IMG/VR virus record: IMGVR_UViG_3300027280_000004
Location: 1-40,551 of that record
Source of the DNA: a virus
Strand: one strand, 5' to 3'
DNA: 40,551 nt
Part shown: piece by piece, positions 8,444 through 27,532 of the stretch
Numbering within the stretch: the first letter of the stretch is position 1
Layout of the letters: each line of letters starts with the position of its first letter
Program-made: the position numbers and the translations under genes
Notes under the pieces: model-generated
Databases searched by the model: none
Told to the model about the DNA's origin: nothing
Seen by the model: the letters and a program-made list of their open reading frames with translations, nothing else

Positions 8444-8629
8444 TTACTCAGCATCCGCAATAGTTAAAGTACCAGCTTCGACTTGCTTGAGTATCTCTGC
8501 GTAGTGACGATTGGCTGAGTCTAGTGGGACAAACATCTCTTGTCCGTCTATTGTTGCGTGGATGCCTGAGTTGCTGTTACCCATGTTAGCAATATATTGT
8601 GCCGTTGTAATGTTCATATGATTTTCCAT
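8444..8629 (-). CDS. Small conserved phage protein next to terL, unknown function
   Basis: 61 aa (MENHMNITTAQYIANMGNSN at the start; possible alternative start at Met5). The C-terminal pattern, VPLDSANRHYAEILKQVEAG then LTIADAE, resembles a short protein that marine podoviruses and myoviruses often encode beside fibre or terminase genes. No function is known to me. It lies 2 nt after the fibre gene stop and about 40 nt before terL. Confidence 0.65.
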   Translation of the reverse strand: MENHMNITTAQYIANMGNSNSGIHATIDGQEMFVPLDSANRHYAEILKQVEAGTLTIADAE

Positions 8630-17105: not shown

Positions 17106-17172
17106 TTATTGGTGTCATCTACTAGGGTGGCACTTGTTAATACTAAACTTAAACCAAAACAGAAAGAGAAAC
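17106..17172 (+). repeat. Duplicated early leader, copy 1
   Basis: Holds GGTGTCA (17111-17117) and GGTGGCA (17126-17132), 15 nt apart and able to pair as GTGTCA/TGGCAC, followed by AAACAGAAAGAGAAAC (17157-17172) just before the ATG at 17177. All three elements recur upstream of the gene at 17784. Confidence 0.7.
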
Positions 17173-17720: not shown

Positions 17721-17780
17721 TCGGTGGCATCTTTTATTGGTGTCACTAAATAATATTAAAACCTAAACAGAAAGAGAAAC
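17721..17780 (+). repeat. Duplicated early leader, copy 2
   Basis: GGTGGCA (17723-17729) and GGTGTCA (17739-17745), 16 nt apart and in reversed order relative to copy 1, again able to pair (GTGGCA/TGTCAC), then AAACAGAAAGAGAAAC (17765-17780), identical to copy 1 over 16 bases. Confidence 0.7.
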
Positions 17781-17783
17781 AAA

Positions 17784-17957
17784 ATGATTGATAAAGATAT
17801 AATAATGAATTTAACAGATATAGAAATATCATGTTTAGAAATTGTTTCATGTAACTTTGAAACGCAAGCTGACATTGAGAAAGAACTCTACAGGATCGCA
17901 GAGCTATGCAAAACTTTGTCAAATGAATTAAGGGATAGGATACAGGAAGATGAGTAA
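17784..17957 (+). CDS. Small acidic helical early protein
   Basis: 57 aa, read directly from the sequence: starts MIDKDIIMNLTDIEISCLEI and ends LRDRIQEDE. Acidic, probably two helices, three cysteines. The ATG follows the duplicated leader with its AGAAAGAG ribosome-binding element, and the 3' end overlaps the zinc ribbon gene by 8 nt. This arrangement suggests the two are made together. No known family recognised. Confidence 0.6.
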   Translation: MIDKDIIMNLTDIEISCLEIVSCNFETQADIEKELYRIAELCKTLSNELRDRIQEDE

Positions 17958-18135
17958 ATCTTTAAGCTGTTGTCCTGAGTGCCTGAGTAAAGGCTATAGG
18001 CTTAAGCTAAAAATAATTGATACAAGGGAATATTTTAAACTTGGCTACCCGTCAACTAAACGCCGTAAAAAATGTTTGACGTGTGGATATAGAGTTAATA
18101 CTGTAGAAATACAATTGGAAAAGGAGAATAAATAG
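17950..18135 (+). CDS. Zinc ribbon protein resembling the NrdR N-terminal domain
   Basis: 61 aa with Cys8, Cys11, Cys42 and Cys45. The second knuckle and its flanks, KRRKKCLTCGYRVNTVEI (residues 37-54), and the IIDTRE segment between the knuckles (22-27) resemble the NrdR zinc ribbon pattern (C-P-x-C, VIDSR, RRRRECxxCGxRFTTxE). The ATP-cone of NrdR is absent. NrdR represses ribonucleotide reductase operons, and this phage carries its own RNR. It may bind DNA alone or interfere with host NrdR; equally it could be an unrelated Ogr/Delta-like zinc finger. Confidence 0.6.
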   Translation: MSKSLSCCPECLSKGYRLKLKIIDTREYFKLGYPSTKRRKKCLTCGYRVNTVEIQLEKENK

Positions 18136-21102: not shown

Positions 21103-21314
21103 TGCAAGAACTATTAGAATATGATCCTTTGGTATACATAACAGCCAGTATATATTTCTTGGGTGTTGTTAATCACTACGTGCTTATGAATACAATACAC
21201 ATAATACTCGAAGCACCAAGAGATTCCACAGCAATGCGTATTAAAGCTATCTTGTGGCCTTGGGAATTAACACTATGCTTGTGGGCTACATGGCAAGACA
21301 GGGATTACGAATGA
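21102..21314 (+). CDS. Small membrane protein in the replication operon
   Basis: 70 aa. Hydrophobic segment near residues 11-34 (VYITASIYFLGVVNHYVLMN) and a second near 47-62 (KAILWPWELTLCLWATWQ) suggest two membrane passes. The start shares a base with the primase-helicase stop (TGATG) and the end overlaps the polymerase start (ATGA), so it is coupled to both. Its role is unknown; it may link replication to the membrane or act against superinfection. Confidence 0.6.
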   Translation: MQELLEYDPLVYITASIYFLGVVNHYVLMNTIHIILEAPRDSTAMRIKAILWPWELTLCLWATWQDRDYE

Positions 21315-22207
21315 AAATATTAGCAATGGACATTGAGACTGACGCATTGGATGCTACTAAGATACATGTCATCTGTGCTCAGGATGTTGACACCAATGAG
21401 AAGTATCAGTTCCTTAATGTATGTACAATACCTGAGGAAAGAGAAGCTTTCTTTCTACTGTGTCAACAGACAGATAAGTTTATATTTCACAATGGGATAG
21501 GGTTCGATGTTAAAGTAATCAACAGACTGTTACAACCTAACCTGATTAACCCAAGTGATGTCATTGACACATTGATCATGTCAAGGCTTATAGACTACAG
21601 CATCAAGGGTGGTCACAGTCTCAAGGCATGGGGTCAAAGACTAGGTGAGTTTAAGGTTGGGTTTGATCAGTTCGAAGTATTGACACAAGAGATGGTTGAC
21701 TATTGTCATCAGGATGTTGAGGTTACAGTTAGACTATACAATAAGTTTAAGTCTAGTATCTTTGACCCTGATCTACAGGATGCCATCAAGTGTGAACATG
21801 ACATACAAATCTTATGTGAAGAGATGACAGATGCAGGGTTCTACTTCGAGAAAGATAAAGCTGAACACCTCTTGGATGAGGTTGAGCTACGCATGATAGA
21901 ATTAACTGAAAGTTTCCAACGTGATTTCCCACCACAATTAGAAGAGGTGAACAGGATTAAGTACCGAAAGAAACAGGATGGTACTACGATGGCAAGTGTA
22001 AAGAAAGCACAAGAGAAATACTTTAAGACAACAGTTGATTGGTCAGTTAACCCACCCGACTTAGTGTGCTACGATTGGATAGAGTTTAATCCAGCATCAC
22101 CTAAGATGAGAATAGAAAGACTATGGGAAGCTGGTTGGCAGCCATACGAGAAAACAAAGGGACACATACAATATGATAGAGAACAAAAACAAAGATCGTG
22201 GAGATAA
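21311..22207 (+). CDS. DNA polymerase A, exonuclease part (first frame of a split gene)
   Basis: 298 aa from ATG 21311 (MKILAMDIETD), which overlaps the upstream stop. 3'-5' exonuclease motifs are intact: Exo I D7/E9 in MDIET, Exo II HNGIGFD ending at D66, Exo III YCHQDVEV with D135. DTLIMSRLIDYSIKG (86-100) matches the T7 polymerase pattern. The frame continues into the thumb-equivalent region (EFNPASPKMRIERLWEAGWQ) and then stops after about 20 more residues, where homologues run straight on into the palm. The polymerase part is in the next frame (+1) with a 35-nt overlap. Confidence 0.85.
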   Translation: MKILAMDIETDALDATKIHVICAQDVDTNEKYQFLNVCTIPEEREAFFLLCQQTDKFIFHNGIGFDVKVINRLLQPNLINPSDVIDTLIMSRLIDYSIKGGHSLKAWGQRLGEFKVGFDQFEVLTQEMVDYCHQDVEVTVRLYNKFKSSIFDPDLQDAIKCEHDIQILCEEMTDAGFYFEKDKAEHLLDEVELRMIELTESFQRDFPPQLEEVNRIKYRKKQDGTTMASVKKAQEKYFKTTVDWSVNPPDLVCYDWIEFNPASPKMRIERLWEAGWQPYEKTKGHIQYDREQKQRSWR

Positions 22208-23204
22208 GTTTGCACGTTATGGTTGGACATTATCTGAGGCTAACCTTGAGACACTGCCTGATGAAGCACCTGCAGGTGGTAAAAGATTAGCTGAGTGGTT
22301 GACACTTGAAGGTAGGAGATCATCGTTGGTTGAATGGCTAGGACATTGTGGTGATGACCACCGTATACATGGCAGGTTCACACATCTTGGTGCATGGACA
22401 GGACGTATGGCTCACTCAGCACCTAACCAAGCTAACATACCATCTGAGTTTCATGGTACACCTAAGTCAGCTGTTGAGGAAGTTAAGGCTAGGTATGACG
22501 GACAGTTCCGTGCCTTATGGGGTGTCGAGAAAGGTAACTACCTAGTGGGTACGGATGCTGAAGGGATTCAGCTGCGAGTACTTGCACATCTAATGAAGTC
22601 AGAAGAATATGTGGATGCTATTGTGTCAGGTAAGAAAGAGAACGAGACTGACATACACAACCTGAACAAGAAAGCATTAGGTATGTCACACATAACAAGA
22701 GATGATGCTAAGACTTTCATCTATGCATTTTTACTAGGGGCAGGTACAGCTAAGATAGCTCAGATACTACGTGTCAATCAACGTGAGGCAAGTCAATGTG
22801 TTGAGAACTTTATGCAATCAATCCAAGGGCTTGCTAACCTAAAGAAGAAAGTCATACCACACATAGCTAAACGTGGTTGGTTCAAAGGTATGGATGGACG
22901 TAAGGTTCTAGTACCATCTGAACATAAGACACTCGCAGGTATGCTGCAGAATGGTGAGTCTGTCATCATGAAACACTCAGCACTACAGTGGGTACGTCAG
23001 GCTAAGGATAAAGAGATAGACTTTAAGCTTGTCACATGGCCTCATGATGAATGGCAGACTGAGGTGTGTGGTAATTATGCAACAGCTGAGGAGTTAGGGG
23101 CTATGCAACGTCAATCTTTTGTTGACATAGGAGAGAAGTTTAATATGGTATGCCCATTAGCAGGGTCAACTGACATCGGACGTAACTGGAAGGACACTCA
23201 CTAA
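22173..23204 (+). CDS. DNA polymerase A, polymerase part (second frame of a split gene)
   Basis: 343 aa. Motif A: GTDAEGIQLR with D128 and E130; motif B (O-helix): RDDAKTFIYAF with R176, K180 and Y184; motif C: PHDEW with D292. Y184 aligns with T7 Y526 and E. coli F762, so this is the tyrosine type. The C-terminus DIGRNWKDTH matches the GxNWxxxH ending of T7 polymerase. The ATG at 22173 has GGGA 10 nt upstream, so independent translation is possible. Deleting one A from the AAAAA run near 22190 would join both frames as EQNKDRGDKFARYGW. Confidence 0.88.
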   Translation: MIENKNKDRGDKFARYGWTLSEANLETLPDEAPAGGKRLAEWLTLEGRRSSLVEWLGHCGDDHRIHGRFTHLGAWTGRMAHSAPNQANIPSEFHGTPKSAVEEVKARYDGQFRALWGVEKGNYLVGTDAEGIQLRVLAHLMKSEEYVDAIVSGKKENETDIHNLNKKALGMSHITRDDAKTFIYAFLLGAGTAKIAQILRVNQREASQCVENFMQSIQGLANLKKKVIPHIAKRGWFKGMDGRKVLVPSEHKTLAGMLQNGESVIMKHSALQWVRQAKDKEIDFKLVTWPHDEWQTEVCGNYATAEELGAMQRQSFVDIGEKFNMVCPLAGSTDIGRNWKDTH

Positions 23205-24963: not shown

Positions 24964-25126
24964 TCGTGCTCTTGTCCAAAATTATGGGTTAGAACTTCTC
25001 CTTGAACAGAACGAAATATCAGAAGAGTTTGTGGTATCATGGCTTGTGGAAGAGAAAAGAATTGATGTCGAAGATTACTTTAATCTAGATGCAGAATTAG
25101 AAGAGTGGAAGAGGATAGAGGAATGA
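24941..25126 (+). CDS. Small acidic protein before MazG, unknown function
   Basis: 61 aa from ATG 24941 (MFDFDSKIRALVQNYGLELL); an in-frame TTG six bases upstream is less likely, as AAGGTG sits correctly for the ATG. Acidic and helical (SEEFVVSWLVEEKRIDVEDY near 27-46). Its stop overlaps the MazG start (ATGA). Similar short acidic proteins accompany endonuclease I in other podoviruses, but no function is known to me. Confidence 0.6.
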   Translation: MFDFDSKIRALVQNYGLELLLEQNEISEEFVVSWLVEEKRIDVEDYFNLDAELEEWKRIEE

Positions 25127-25452
25127 GTAAAGTAAAAACATTAGATGAGTACCAAAGGGCAGCTGCAACCACAGCTATCTACCCTGAGAATAGAGCATTA
25201 GAATATTTAAGTTTAGGTTTGTCAGCTGAGGTTGGTGAGCTTACAGGTAAGTTAGCTAAGTGGTATCGTAAAGATGAGATGGCATACCCACATGGTGACG
25301 TATTAGATGAGCTAGGTGATGTACTGTGGTTTGTCAGTGAGTTTGCTAGGCAACATAACACCAGCTTATCTAAGTTAGCAAATAGGAATATTAGTAAGTT
25401 GTCAGATAGATATGAACGTGGTGTTCTTAAGGGATCAGGAGATAAGAGATGA
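25123..25452 (+). CDS. MazG-like nucleoside triphosphate pyrophosphohydrolase
   Basis: 109 aa from ATG 25123, overlapping the upstream stop. All-alpha NTP pyrophosphatase signature: E36 and E39 in SAEVGEL, E63 and D66 in LDELGDVLW, which coordinate Mg2+. Marine phages often carry MazG; proposed roles are dNTP pool sanitation or lowering ppGpp-type signalling so the starved host keeps transcribing. It is the first of a coupled set MazG, DUF1127, RNR (ATGA overlaps), so nucleotide supply is the likely theme here. Confidence 0.85.
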   Translation: MSKVKTLDEYQRAAATTAIYPENRALEYLSLGLSAEVGELTGKLAKWYRKDEMAYPHGDVLDELGDVLWFVSEFARQHNTSLSKLANRNISKLSDRYERGVLKGSGDKR

Positions 25453-25640
25453 AAGCATTCGGACGTTGGTGGTATAGGTTTATTAACTACATGATTACAT
25501 GGCAGCTACATAGAGATGCAGTTAAGCATTTAAATAAGTTGACAGATAGGGAGTTAAAAGATATAGGTCTTACTCGTGGAGAAATTGATCGTATGATCTG
25601 GTTCAAAGAAGACAAGAAAGATAGAGGGACAAAAGAATGA
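25449..25640 (+). CDS. DUF1127 (YjiS-like) small protein
   Basis: 63 aa. The C-terminal half has the DUF1127 pattern: LNKLTDRELKDIGLTRGEID (about residues 29-48). The N-terminal half is aromatic and basic (WWYRFINYMITWQLHRDAVK). DUF1127 proteins are typical of Proteobacteria, notably alphaproteobacteria, where members affect phosphate and carbon metabolism and bind RNA. It overlaps MazG and RNR by 4 nt on each side, so all three are coupled. It is probably captured from a host; a role in nucleotide metabolism or host regulation is inference. Confidence 0.8.
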   Translation: MKAFGRWWYRFINYMITWQLHRDAVKHLNKLTDRELKDIGLTRGEIDRMIWFKEDKKDRGTKE

Positions 25641-27532
25641 ACAACTACTTACCAACAGATTACCAAGCATTTATACATAAGTCACGTTATGCTAAATACT
25701 ACGAAGGTAAAGGCCGTGAGTCTTGGGGTGACACAGTAGATAGGTACATGGATAATATTGTAGGTAACTTAGCTGACATAGTTACCAAGAAAGAAATCAA
25801 AGAAGCTATACTAAACTTAGCTGTTATGCCTAGCATGAGATCATTGATGACAGCAGGTAAGGCTGCAGAACGTGACAATACATGTATGTATAACTGTTCA
25901 TACTTAGCTGTCGATGATGTTAAGGCATTCGATGAGGCTATGTTTATTCTACTGTGTGGTACAGGTGTTGGGTTCTCAGTTGAACGTCAGTCAGTACAGA
26001 AGCTACCTGAAGTACCAACCTTATTTGTCAGTGAGACTAACATAGTTGTCAAAGACAGTAAGGAAGGTTGGGCTAAGGCTCTACGTCAGATGATCGCATT
26101 ACTTTACAGTGGTGAAATACCAACATGGGATGTATCTAAAGTTAGACCTGCAGGTGCACCTCTTAAAACGTTTGGTGGTAGAGCATCAGGACCTGCTCCA
26201 TTGGTTGACCTGTTCACCTTTGTCATCAAGACATTTAAAGATGCACAAGGACGTAGGCTATCCTCTCTTGAGTGCCATGACATTATGTGTAAGATAGGCG
26301 AAGTAGTGGTGGTAGGCGGTGTACGCCGTAGTGCTATGATTTCATTGAGTAATTTATCAGATGACCGTATGCGTCATGCTAAGTCAGGCTCATGGTGGGA
26401 CAACGATCCACAACGAGCATTAGCTAACAACTCTGTGTCATACACTGAGAAGCCTGACAGCTTATCGTTCATGAGAGAATGGATGGCCTTAGTTGAATCA
26501 GGTTCAGGTGAACGAGGTATCTTCAACAGGCAAGCATCTAAGGTACAAGCTGCTAAGAATGGTAGGCGTGATGCTGACCATGACTTCGGGACTAACCCAT
26601 GCAGTGAAATAATTTTAAGACCGTCACAATTCTGTAACTTAACAGAGGTGGTTGTAAGAGCAACAGACACACTAGACACCTTAAGTGAGAAGGTAAGGCT
26701 TGCAACTATCTTAGGTACTATTCAATCTAACTATACTAAGTTCCCATACTTACGTAAGGTCTGGAAGAATAACACCGAAGAAGAAAGACTACTTGGTGTG
26801 TCGTTAACAGGTGTCATGGATAATCCATTGATGACACTCAAAAACAAAGGATTGGAGAAGACTCTTGACCATCTTAAACAAATCGCCGTTGCTACTAATG
26901 CTACTTGGGCTGAACGCCTTAATATCCCTGTCAGTACTGCTATCAGCTGTAATAAACCAAGCGGTACTGTCAGCCAATTGGTTGACTCTAGCAGTGGCAT
27001 TCATGCTCGTCACTCAGCCTATTATATTAGGACTGTTCGTGGAGACAACAAAGACCCGTTGACACAATTCATGATTGACCAAGGTATTCCTAATGAGCCA
27101 GATGTAATGAAGCCAGATGCTACAACAGTATTTAGTTTCCCTATGAAAGCTCCTAGGGATGCTGTGGTTACAGCTGACATGACAGCCATTGAACAACTTG
27201 AGATGTGGTTAGCTTATCAACGATCATGGTGTGAACACAAACCATCTGTTACAATTAATGTTAAGAGTGATGAGTGGTTTGAAGTAGGAGCATTTGTATA
27301 CAAACACTTCGATGAGATGAGTGGTGTGTCATTCCTACCGTTCAACGAACATACATACCAACAAGCACCATACCAAGATGTTGACAAAAAGAAATACTTA
27401 GAGACACTAGGTCAGATGCCTAACAAGATTGATTGGTCATTACTGTCAGATTACGAGAACGAAGACAATACAGCTGGAAGTCAGACAATGGCATGTAGTG
27501 GTGACGTTTGTGAGATGGTAGACTTAACATAA
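25637..27532 (+). CDS. Ribonucleotide reductase, class II (adenosylcobalamin-dependent)
   Basis: 631 aa. Key residues follow the monomeric class II enzyme of Lactobacillus leichmannii: C87 (NCSYL) as the first redox cysteine, N320-P-C322-S-E324 as radical site, C333 (QFCNLTEV) eleven residues after C322 as in the reference, and a C-terminal CSGDVC pair five apart for reduction. No glycyl radical motif or small subunit, which excludes classes III and I. It makes deoxyribonucleotides for phage DNA and needs vitamin B12 from the host. Shorter than the L. leichmannii enzyme (739 aa). This enzyme is the marker of SIO1/cobavirus-type phages. Confidence 0.93.
   Translation: MNNYLPTDYQAFIHKSRYAKYYEGKGRESWGDTVDRYMDNIVGNLADIVTKKEIKEAILNLAVMPSMRSLMTAGKAAERDNTCMYNCSYLAVDDVKAFDEAMFILLCGTGVGFSVERQSVQKLPEVPTLFVSETNIVVKDSKEGWAKALRQMIALLYSGEIPTWDVSKVRPAGAPLKTFGGRASGPAPLVDLFTFVIKTFKDAQGRRLSSLECHDIMCKIGEVVVVGGVRRSAMISLSNLSDDRMRHAKSGSWWDNDPQRALANNSVSYTEKPDSLSFMREWMALVESGSGERGIFNRQASKVQAAKNGRRDADHDFGTNPCSEIILRPSQFCNLTEVVVRATDTLDTLSEKVRLATILGTIQSNYTKFPYLRKVWKNNTEEERLLGVSLTGVMDNPLMTLKNKGLEKTLDHLKQIAVATNATWAERLNIPVSTAISCNKPSGTVSQLVDSSSGIHARHSAYYIRTVRGDNKDPLTQFMIDQGIPNEPDVMKPDATTVFSFPMKAPRDAVVTADMTAIEQLEMWLAYQRSWCEHKPSVTINVKSDEWFEVGAFVYKHFDEMSGVSFLPFNEHTYQQAPYQDVDKKKYLETLGQMPNKIDWSLLSDYENEDNTAGSQTMACSGDVCEMVDLT

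Follow-up and report, generated by a model that had tools for sequence, protein, structure and literature searches.

The window analyzed here is the whole 40,551-bp stretch of a virus record, whose terminase is 92.8% identical to that of Roseobacter phage CRP-5 and 84.9% identical to that of Lentibacter phage ICBM2 (both Zobellviridae, Cobavirinae, Veravirus), and the phage is a marine, Veravirus-like cobavirus. On the plus strand, at 17950..18135, lies a 61-aa ORF with an ATG start that encodes a stand-alone NrdR-type zinc ribbon without an ATP-cone, as indicated by a PF22811 match and by an AlphaFold2 (AF2) model compared with Foldseek. Its translation, MSKSLSCCPECLSKGYRLKLKIIDTREYFKLGYPSTKRRKKCLTCGYRVNTVEIQLEKENK, contains four cysteines arranged CX2C...CX2C, with Cys8 and Cys11 (NrdR C3 and C6) forming the first zinc knuckle (17971..17982, +) and Cys42 and Cys45 (NrdR C31 and C34) the second (18073..18084, +); residues 37-48, around the second knuckle, read KRRKKCLTCGYR. 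The ORF sits in the left part of a rightward small-gene cluster that leads into genes for a primase-helicase, a split family A polymerase, endonuclease I, MazG, and a B12-dependent ribonucleotide reductase (RNR). The MazG-type NTP pyrophosphohydrolase, a nucleotide-metabolism neighbor, lies at 25105..25452 (+; PF03819, E 4.9e-6), and the class II (B12-dependent) RNR of 631 aa at 25637..27532 (+), with PF21995 and PF02867 both over cut-off, 82.3% identity to the ICBM2 RNR, and an NCBIfam RTPR score of 302.6 bits that stays under the equivalog cut-off of 340. The family A DNA polymerase is made up of two overlapping ORFs, exonuclease and polymerase (21305-22207 and 22173-23204), as annotated in ICBM2.

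Directly upstream of the ribbon is a 57-aa ORF (17784..17957, +) that has no Pfam match at E 0.01 and whose end overlaps the ribbon start by 8 nt; the two are probably cotranslated, and the stretch covering both aligns as DNA in several near relatives. Among 12 cobavirus-type ribbon sequences, window included, dN/dS of the ribbon against the window copy is 0.07-0.25 (11 relatives), and the median over the 61 pairs with at least five synonymous changes is 0.10 (range 0.03-0.19). With such low values the ORF behaves as a real gene, and it is under purifying selection. RNA folding predicts a hairpin before this two-gene cistron (17723..17747, +; -11.8 kcal/mol, z -4.9) and another before an early cistron at 17111-17134 (-12.4 kcal/mol, z -4.1). 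The GGTGKCA arms are swapped between the two copies (GUC/GGC), so that the stem is kept, and the hairpin is perhaps an mRNA processing or stabilizing element. Elements of about 80 bp resembling these hairpins are found in many relatives, and a GGTGKCA pair (in a copy that was not folded) precedes gp02 of CRP-5, a phage without the ribbon, so the hairpin is not a ribbon signature.

With respect to domain identity, PF22811 (Zn_ribbon_NrdR) matches the ribbon at E 2.1e-6; the alignment spans profile positions 3-42 of 42 and scores 28.0 bits, where the curated cut-off is 27.2. This margin is thin for the window ribbon, and six close relatives score 24.7-29.5 bits, three of them under the cut-off; the more distant stand-alone ribbons of CRP-901, RcZahn, Ssp-JY39, S-CRES1, and IMG/VR locus L069 reach 34.5, 39.0, 46.7, 54.6, and 59.6 bits, respectively. 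The sole further Pfam family listed for the ribbon is DUF7129, at 12.2 bits (cut-off 30). The full-length NrdR model TIGR00244 aligns at positions 3-43 of 147 only (E 0.0051, 16.9 bits, cut-off 124.65), which indicates a ribbon alone. The C-terminal ATP-cone through which NrdR senses ATP and dATP has no room in a 61-aa ORF, and its family, PF03477, was found in none of 11 records, window included; the same search was positive in 12 of 14 control genomes. Pfam describes PF22811 as the N-terminal domain of NrdR-like repressors, and in the window it makes up almost the entire protein.

Comparisons with known structures point the same way. A phmmer search of the PDB puts NrdR in its top four rows, at E-values (0.19-0.26) that are nonsignificant and weak alone. 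The AF2 model, made with 23 aligned sequences (pLDDT 79.9, pTM 0.55), shows three strands and one short helix; Foldseek against the PDB lists NrdR in all of rows 1-12 (E 0.014-0.14), followed by an eIF5A chain (0.22), and VIA-align lists NrdR in rows 1-5 (Z 4.7-5.6), followed by a chain of a Rip1-small terminase complex (4.6) and ZPR1 (4.3). These E-values and Z scores are modest, and the Z margin over the next rows is small taken alone. Neither Ogr/Delta nor Lar appears in the two fold lists, an absence that by itself excludes nothing. Taken together, there is a strong case that the ORF encodes the DNA-binding zinc ribbon half of NrdR only.

The ribbon retains more of NrdR than its cysteines. 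According to structural reports, base reading by the ribbons of Streptomyces coelicolor NrdR falls to D15 and R17, while R12, R26-29, and R37 hold DNA phosphates, R17A no longer binding the nrdRJ promoter and D15A losing specificity (PMC9110341); Escherichia coli NrdR ribbons pair via residues 39-45, R27, R29, and E42 being linked by salt bridges (PMC12176259); and each box is gripped by a ribbon pair (PMC9110341, PMC12176259). In our alignment, K21, D24, R26, K37-R38-R39-K40, R48, and E53 of the window ribbon fall on NrdR R12, D15, R17, R26-29, R37, and E42. By these correspondences, D24-T25-R26 (18019..18027, +) would be the base-reading pair of D15-S16-R17 (role from PMC9110341), K37-R38-R39-K40 (18058..18069, +) the phosphate and dimer patch of RRRR 26-29, and the segment from R48 to E53 (18091..18108, +) would run from NrdR R37 to E42, the residue of the ribbon-ribbon salt bridge (roles of the last two from PMC9110341 and PMC12176259). 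Across 47 distinct phage ribbons, many of them near-identical, we observe R17 in 44 and D15 in 38 (plus 3 E, 5 N, and 1 K), R/K26 in 44, R27 in 46, R28 in 40 (7 N), R/K29 in 47, R/K37 in 45, and both T/S40 and E42 in all 47. The alignment collapses 86 sequences to 50 (47 phage, 3 NrdR), leaves out L020 (a copy of the window) and L101, includes two rows cut by contig ends (L013, L050), and has the N-terminal extensions of L042, L051, L053, and L054 trimmed. Conservation at D15-R17 and at 29-36 is partly ascertained, because the search patterns for the loci used those stretches; R27, R37, and E42 lie outside the peptide patterns, with tblastn confirmation still favoring look-alikes. Judged from the alignment, the retained residues are those that should be expected of a DNA-binding, pairing NrdR ribbon, beyond what zinc binding would need. 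Two features speak against an NrdR-like binder: the loop between the cysteine pairs is six residues longer than in NrdR, and two of the four RRRR positions are lysine.

The ribbon thus has in common with NrdR (TIGR00244; E. coli and S. coelicolor structures) the two CX2C knuckles, D15/R17, the Arg-rich patch, R37, E42, and the predicted fold, and differs from it in being phage-encoded, in these loop and patch positions, and in having no ATP-cone and hence no nucleotide sensing of its own. The first-pass annotation of this DNA had read the ORF, with its four cysteines and the residues around Cys42, as an NrdR-like ribbon lacking the ATP-cone in a phage with its own RNR, and had made that reading depend on structure comparison and on the arginines near Cys42. 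All of this is borne out: the fold searches place no other zinc family ahead of NrdR, and the arginines are conserved.

Sequence comparison places the ribbon in a wide group of stand-alone NrdR ribbons from phages, most of them unannotated, including those of CRP-901, RcZahn (gp96), S-CRES1, and Ssp-JY39. In IMG/VR we found 19 close relatives, and 75 loci by profile (19 included). In a survey covering 50 of the then 80 loci, PF22811 was matched at E 0.01 in 49 of 50 records and over the cut-off in 33, with four of the 49 reaching just 12.7 bits; the exception is ICBM2, included as a ribbon-less sibling. The ribbon was likewise not found in CRP-5, and with two of the closest named phages lacking it, the ribbon is an accessory gene in the cobaviruses. 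The ribbon ORFs of CRP-901 (L021:5980-6177) and S-CRES1 (L096:2501-2707) are absent from the deposited annotation, and RcZahn gp96 (L024:2977-3192, MW677529), whose gene shares 8 nt with the end of the ThyX gene, is annotated as Ogr/Delta-like, with 14.1 of 26.3 bits for Ogr_Delta. The PHROG families phrog_36879 and phrog_10675, which carry no functional label, are matched by the ribbons of EBPR siphovirus 2, S-CRES1, RcZahn, and several IMG/VR records, and by the window ribbon at E 0.099 and 0.17 only. Many matches in fecal "Bacteriophage sp." records, which may be full NrdR, stand outside these counts. In bacterial genome contigs, one scan for stand-alone ribbons returned a single locus, the full-length NrdR of a Candidatus Spyradenecus MAG.

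A phage RNR is not a constant companion of the ribbon. An RNR large chain is present in 8 of the 50 records, and seven of these eight are ribbon-bearing (six cobavirus-type records and G017); the other records are mostly fragments, so that RNR absence there means little. Five complete ribbon-bearing phages, CRP-901, RcZahn, Ssp-JY39, MW202777, and MW202675 (the last with a variant ribbon that reaches 23.1 bits, below the PF22811 cut-off of 27.2), have no match to PF02867, the window NrdJ, or class III PF13597, which indicates that the partner of the ribbon is not always a phage RNR. S-CRES1 combines its ribbon with a 778-aa frame that matches the window NrdJ at E 4.5e-12, under the PF02867 cut-off, and the partial record of EBPR siphovirus 2 has, near the ribbon, a 104-aa gene labeled RNR alpha that gave no match in the RNR searches.

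Candidate target sites were sought with a weighted NrdR-box scan, for a consensus that we take to be acaCwAtATaTwGtgt, with significance judged against shuffled sequence (200 shuffles for the 300-bp promoter scan). As controls, all three E. coli nrd promoters show box pairs spaced 15 bp apart whose scores were matched by none of 200 shuffles, nor by any of 60 shuffles of 6-10 kb loci. Box pairs at 15-16 bp spacing precede nrdJ in five of seven Rhodobacterales promoters (P <= 0.015), namely two near-identical Ruegeria, Paracoccus seriniphilus, Paroceanicella, and Rhodobacter CZR27; these promoters come from Rhodobacterales other than the window phage's own host, and the sample covers seven of eight rows, with Paracoccus albus left out. 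The 300-bp scan found no pair above chance before nrdJ in Cereibacter (P = 0.195) or on a Phaeobacter plasmid (P = 0.885). Over whole 4.9-kb loci, a scan that did not take in the Phaeobacter locus (L115), the best pair lies just before nrdJ in five of six, with P <= 0.017 in four and P = 0.083 in CZR27. On the Phaeobacter piscinae plasmid, pS26_106 (L115:1465-3750), a linear record, genes for a protelomerase, an SSB, and a replicative helicase lie next to nrdJ; the plasmid looks like a phage-plasmid that brings its own RNR, and none of its NrdR-box pairs exceeds chance. A full-length NrdR is present in one of the Rhodobacterales, Pseudorhodobacter turbinis (L102), and a comparative study of 196 genomes reconstructs 186 NrdR regulons, covering 20 of the 21 proteobacterial groups considered (PMC5343134).

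The window itself gave a different result. No box pair above chance was found in the 300 bp before its nrdJ (P = 0.925), before the ribbon cistron (P = 0.165), or in the early region (P = 0.465); the window-wide scan returned 12 sites against 16.9 expected (20 shuffles), with a best pair of 36 against 37-41 in the shuffles, and P = 0.917 at canonical box spacing. Of 16 phage stretches scanned at canonical spacing (14 ribbon-bearing, 2 ribbon-less), only the RcZahn half-genome beat its shuffles, with P = 0.017, unremarkable among 16 tests. Covered in this way were the window, CRP-901 for 50 of its 53 kb, one half of RcZahn, six IMG/VR records in pieces, and ICBM2 and CRP-5 in their left parts; the small IMG/VR piece L090, Ssp-JY39, MW202777, MW202675, EBPR siphovirus 2, and S-CRES1 were left out. 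Recognizable sites for an NrdR ribbon are therefore found in the hosts' order rather than in the window phage, in scans that report sites only. The search for NrdR boxes that the first-pass annotation had proposed for phage and likely hosts was thus negative for the former and positive for five of seven Rhodobacterales nrdJ promoters, and its suggestion that the ribbon directs phage RNR expression is not supported: no box pair stands out anywhere in the window, the region preceding nrdJ included, two siblings with closely related RNRs lack the ribbon, and the five complete ribbon phages have no RNR that we could find.

Host NrdR binds DNA as a dATP- and ATP-loaded tetramer that bridges two boxes. 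A ribbon without an ATP-cone could not be switched by ATP or dATP, and by itself would not form such a tetramer. We propose, at even chances, that it acts as a nucleotide-blind NrdR DNA-binding dimer at host nrd promoters and most likely upsets host repression; DNA binding, dimerization, host target, and derepression are all steps that we infer. Two copies would pair by way of the third strand, in the manner of NrdR ribbons, and the pair would bind one NrdR-box-like palindrome without needing dATP. Its most likely target would be the host nrd promoter or promoters, where it could compete with host NrdR for boxes or form mixed pairs with host NrdR ribbons, so that the dATP-triggered shutoff of host RNR would be blunted during phage DNA synthesis. 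Competition for boxes and release of host nrd genes, as first suggested for this ORF, is plausible and fits the distribution. We favor loss of host repression because a ribbon phage with no detected RNR has no benefit to expect from turning host RNR off. The anatomy does not force derepression, because an occupied box may still block promoter or polymerase, and the genes could also stay repressed.

That the ribbon instead regulates phage transcription by binding sites of its own, in the early region or the nrdJ promoter, is, in our estimate, unlikely. A small gene with a DNA-binding fold in an early-type region, with intergenic repeats before its cistron, would suit such a role, but no NrdR-box pair in the window rises above shuffles. 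The site specificity of the ribbon may have changed. The sole perfect 10-bp box core in the window, at 8590, is not conserved in any of the three relatives with 260 bp of corresponding sequence, the nearest differing by a single base. The intergenic repeat, for its part, was rejected as a ribbon target, since an RNA hairpin is predicted for it and CRP-5, which lacks the ribbon, has the GGTGKCA pair as well.

Somewhat less probable still is a constitutive repressor, in which ribbon dimers, or host NrdR cones joined to phage ribbons, would sit on host boxes at any dATP level, keeping host RNR off while the phage uses its own. Both the DNA-contact and the dimer residues are retained, the window phage does have an RNR, and, with one ribbon pair per box in NrdR structures, a capped NrdR dimer could in principle bridge two boxes; the five complete ribbon-bearing phages without a detected RNR, however, would restrict their own dNTP supply in this way. 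Zinc ribbons are versatile, and the NrdR likeness could be the relic of a domain that now binds something else, be it RNA polymerase, RNA, or a host protein. Lower in the VIA list there are ribbons of RNA polymerase and ZPR1, and the Lar restriction-alleviation profile matches RcZahn gp96 weakly (E 5e-4, under cut-off), but most of the 47 distinct sequences keep the D/R pair for base reading, the Arg patch, R37, and E42, which makes this reading improbable; a Lar identity was rejected on profile scores.

An Ogr/Delta-type late-gene activator, as the label of RcZahn gp96 and weak sub-cut-off scores for L021, L024, and L071 might suggest, was likewise rejected on profile scores and is very improbable, given that Ogr_Delta reaches 13.9-19.0 of 26.3 bits wherever it is listed, that PF04606 is unlisted for the window ribbon at E up to 10 (HMMER filters dropping most weak matches) and PF22811 is over its cut-off, that NrdR comes first in Foldseek, and that the second knuckle is CX2C rather than the CX4C of Ogr/Delta zinc fingers, which are also small phage zinc proteins.

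Phages need much dNTP, and many carry their own RNR. They also face the widespread host repressor NrdR, which phage-made dATP should switch on. A free NrdR DNA-binding domain would be a direct and cheap handle on it, being a 61-aa protein with known target sequences and a known repressor as its competitor. It also offers a testable label for unannotated or "hypothetical" phage proteins such as those of phrog_36879 and phrog_10675, RcZahn gp96, and the unannotated CRP-901 and S-CRES1 ORFs. More tentatively, and with doubt outweighing confidence, we suggest that different phages repeatedly kept a nucleotide-blind NrdR ribbon as a transcription factor mimic, one that removes host NrdR from nrd promoters or uncouples it from them and so breaks the dATP feedback on host dNTP supply. 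If true, such ribbons would form a class of host-takeover regulators that has had no name so far, accompanying a phage RNR in some phages and standing in place of one in others.

NrdR itself and its Pfam domain are already known; among the listed matches of a literature search that largely excluded subscription journals, none describes a phage protein consisting of a free-standing NrdR ribbon. Phage Cp-1 orf6 is reported to interact with Streptococcus pneumoniae NrdR in a protein-protein screen (PMC4840434), a cyanopodovirus ORF is named NrdR (PMC8790148), NrdR stands in a table of gut-phage sporulation genes (PMC10294663) or enters only via a cited NrdR paper (PMC9913540), and neither zinc nor promoter nor transcriptional regulator occurs as a word in the main text of the cobavirus paper (PMC6775973). 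Cp-1 orf6 is, like the ribbon, a small phage protein tied to host NrdR, a likeness by description.

Two variants extend the range of these small proteins. A 113-aa ribbon (L066:2152-2493, with four identical copies in L064, L065, L067, and L068) lacks the usual D15-S-R17 pattern, scores only 12.7 bits with PF22811, and has a second cysteine cluster in its tail (CYDCIHWDNKGC...C). In Loktanella phage pCB2051-A, which carries a host-type nrdJ, LOKG_00077 (L101:5899-6111) resembles the second half of the ribbon (RKKCPVCGLTYNTVD) without the first CX2C knuckle; since this zinc protein has no PF22811 match, the phage was left out of the box counts, and the 300-bp scan gave P = 0.025 before nrdJ, at a noncanonical 13-bp spacing, and P = 0.055 before the 70-aa gene.
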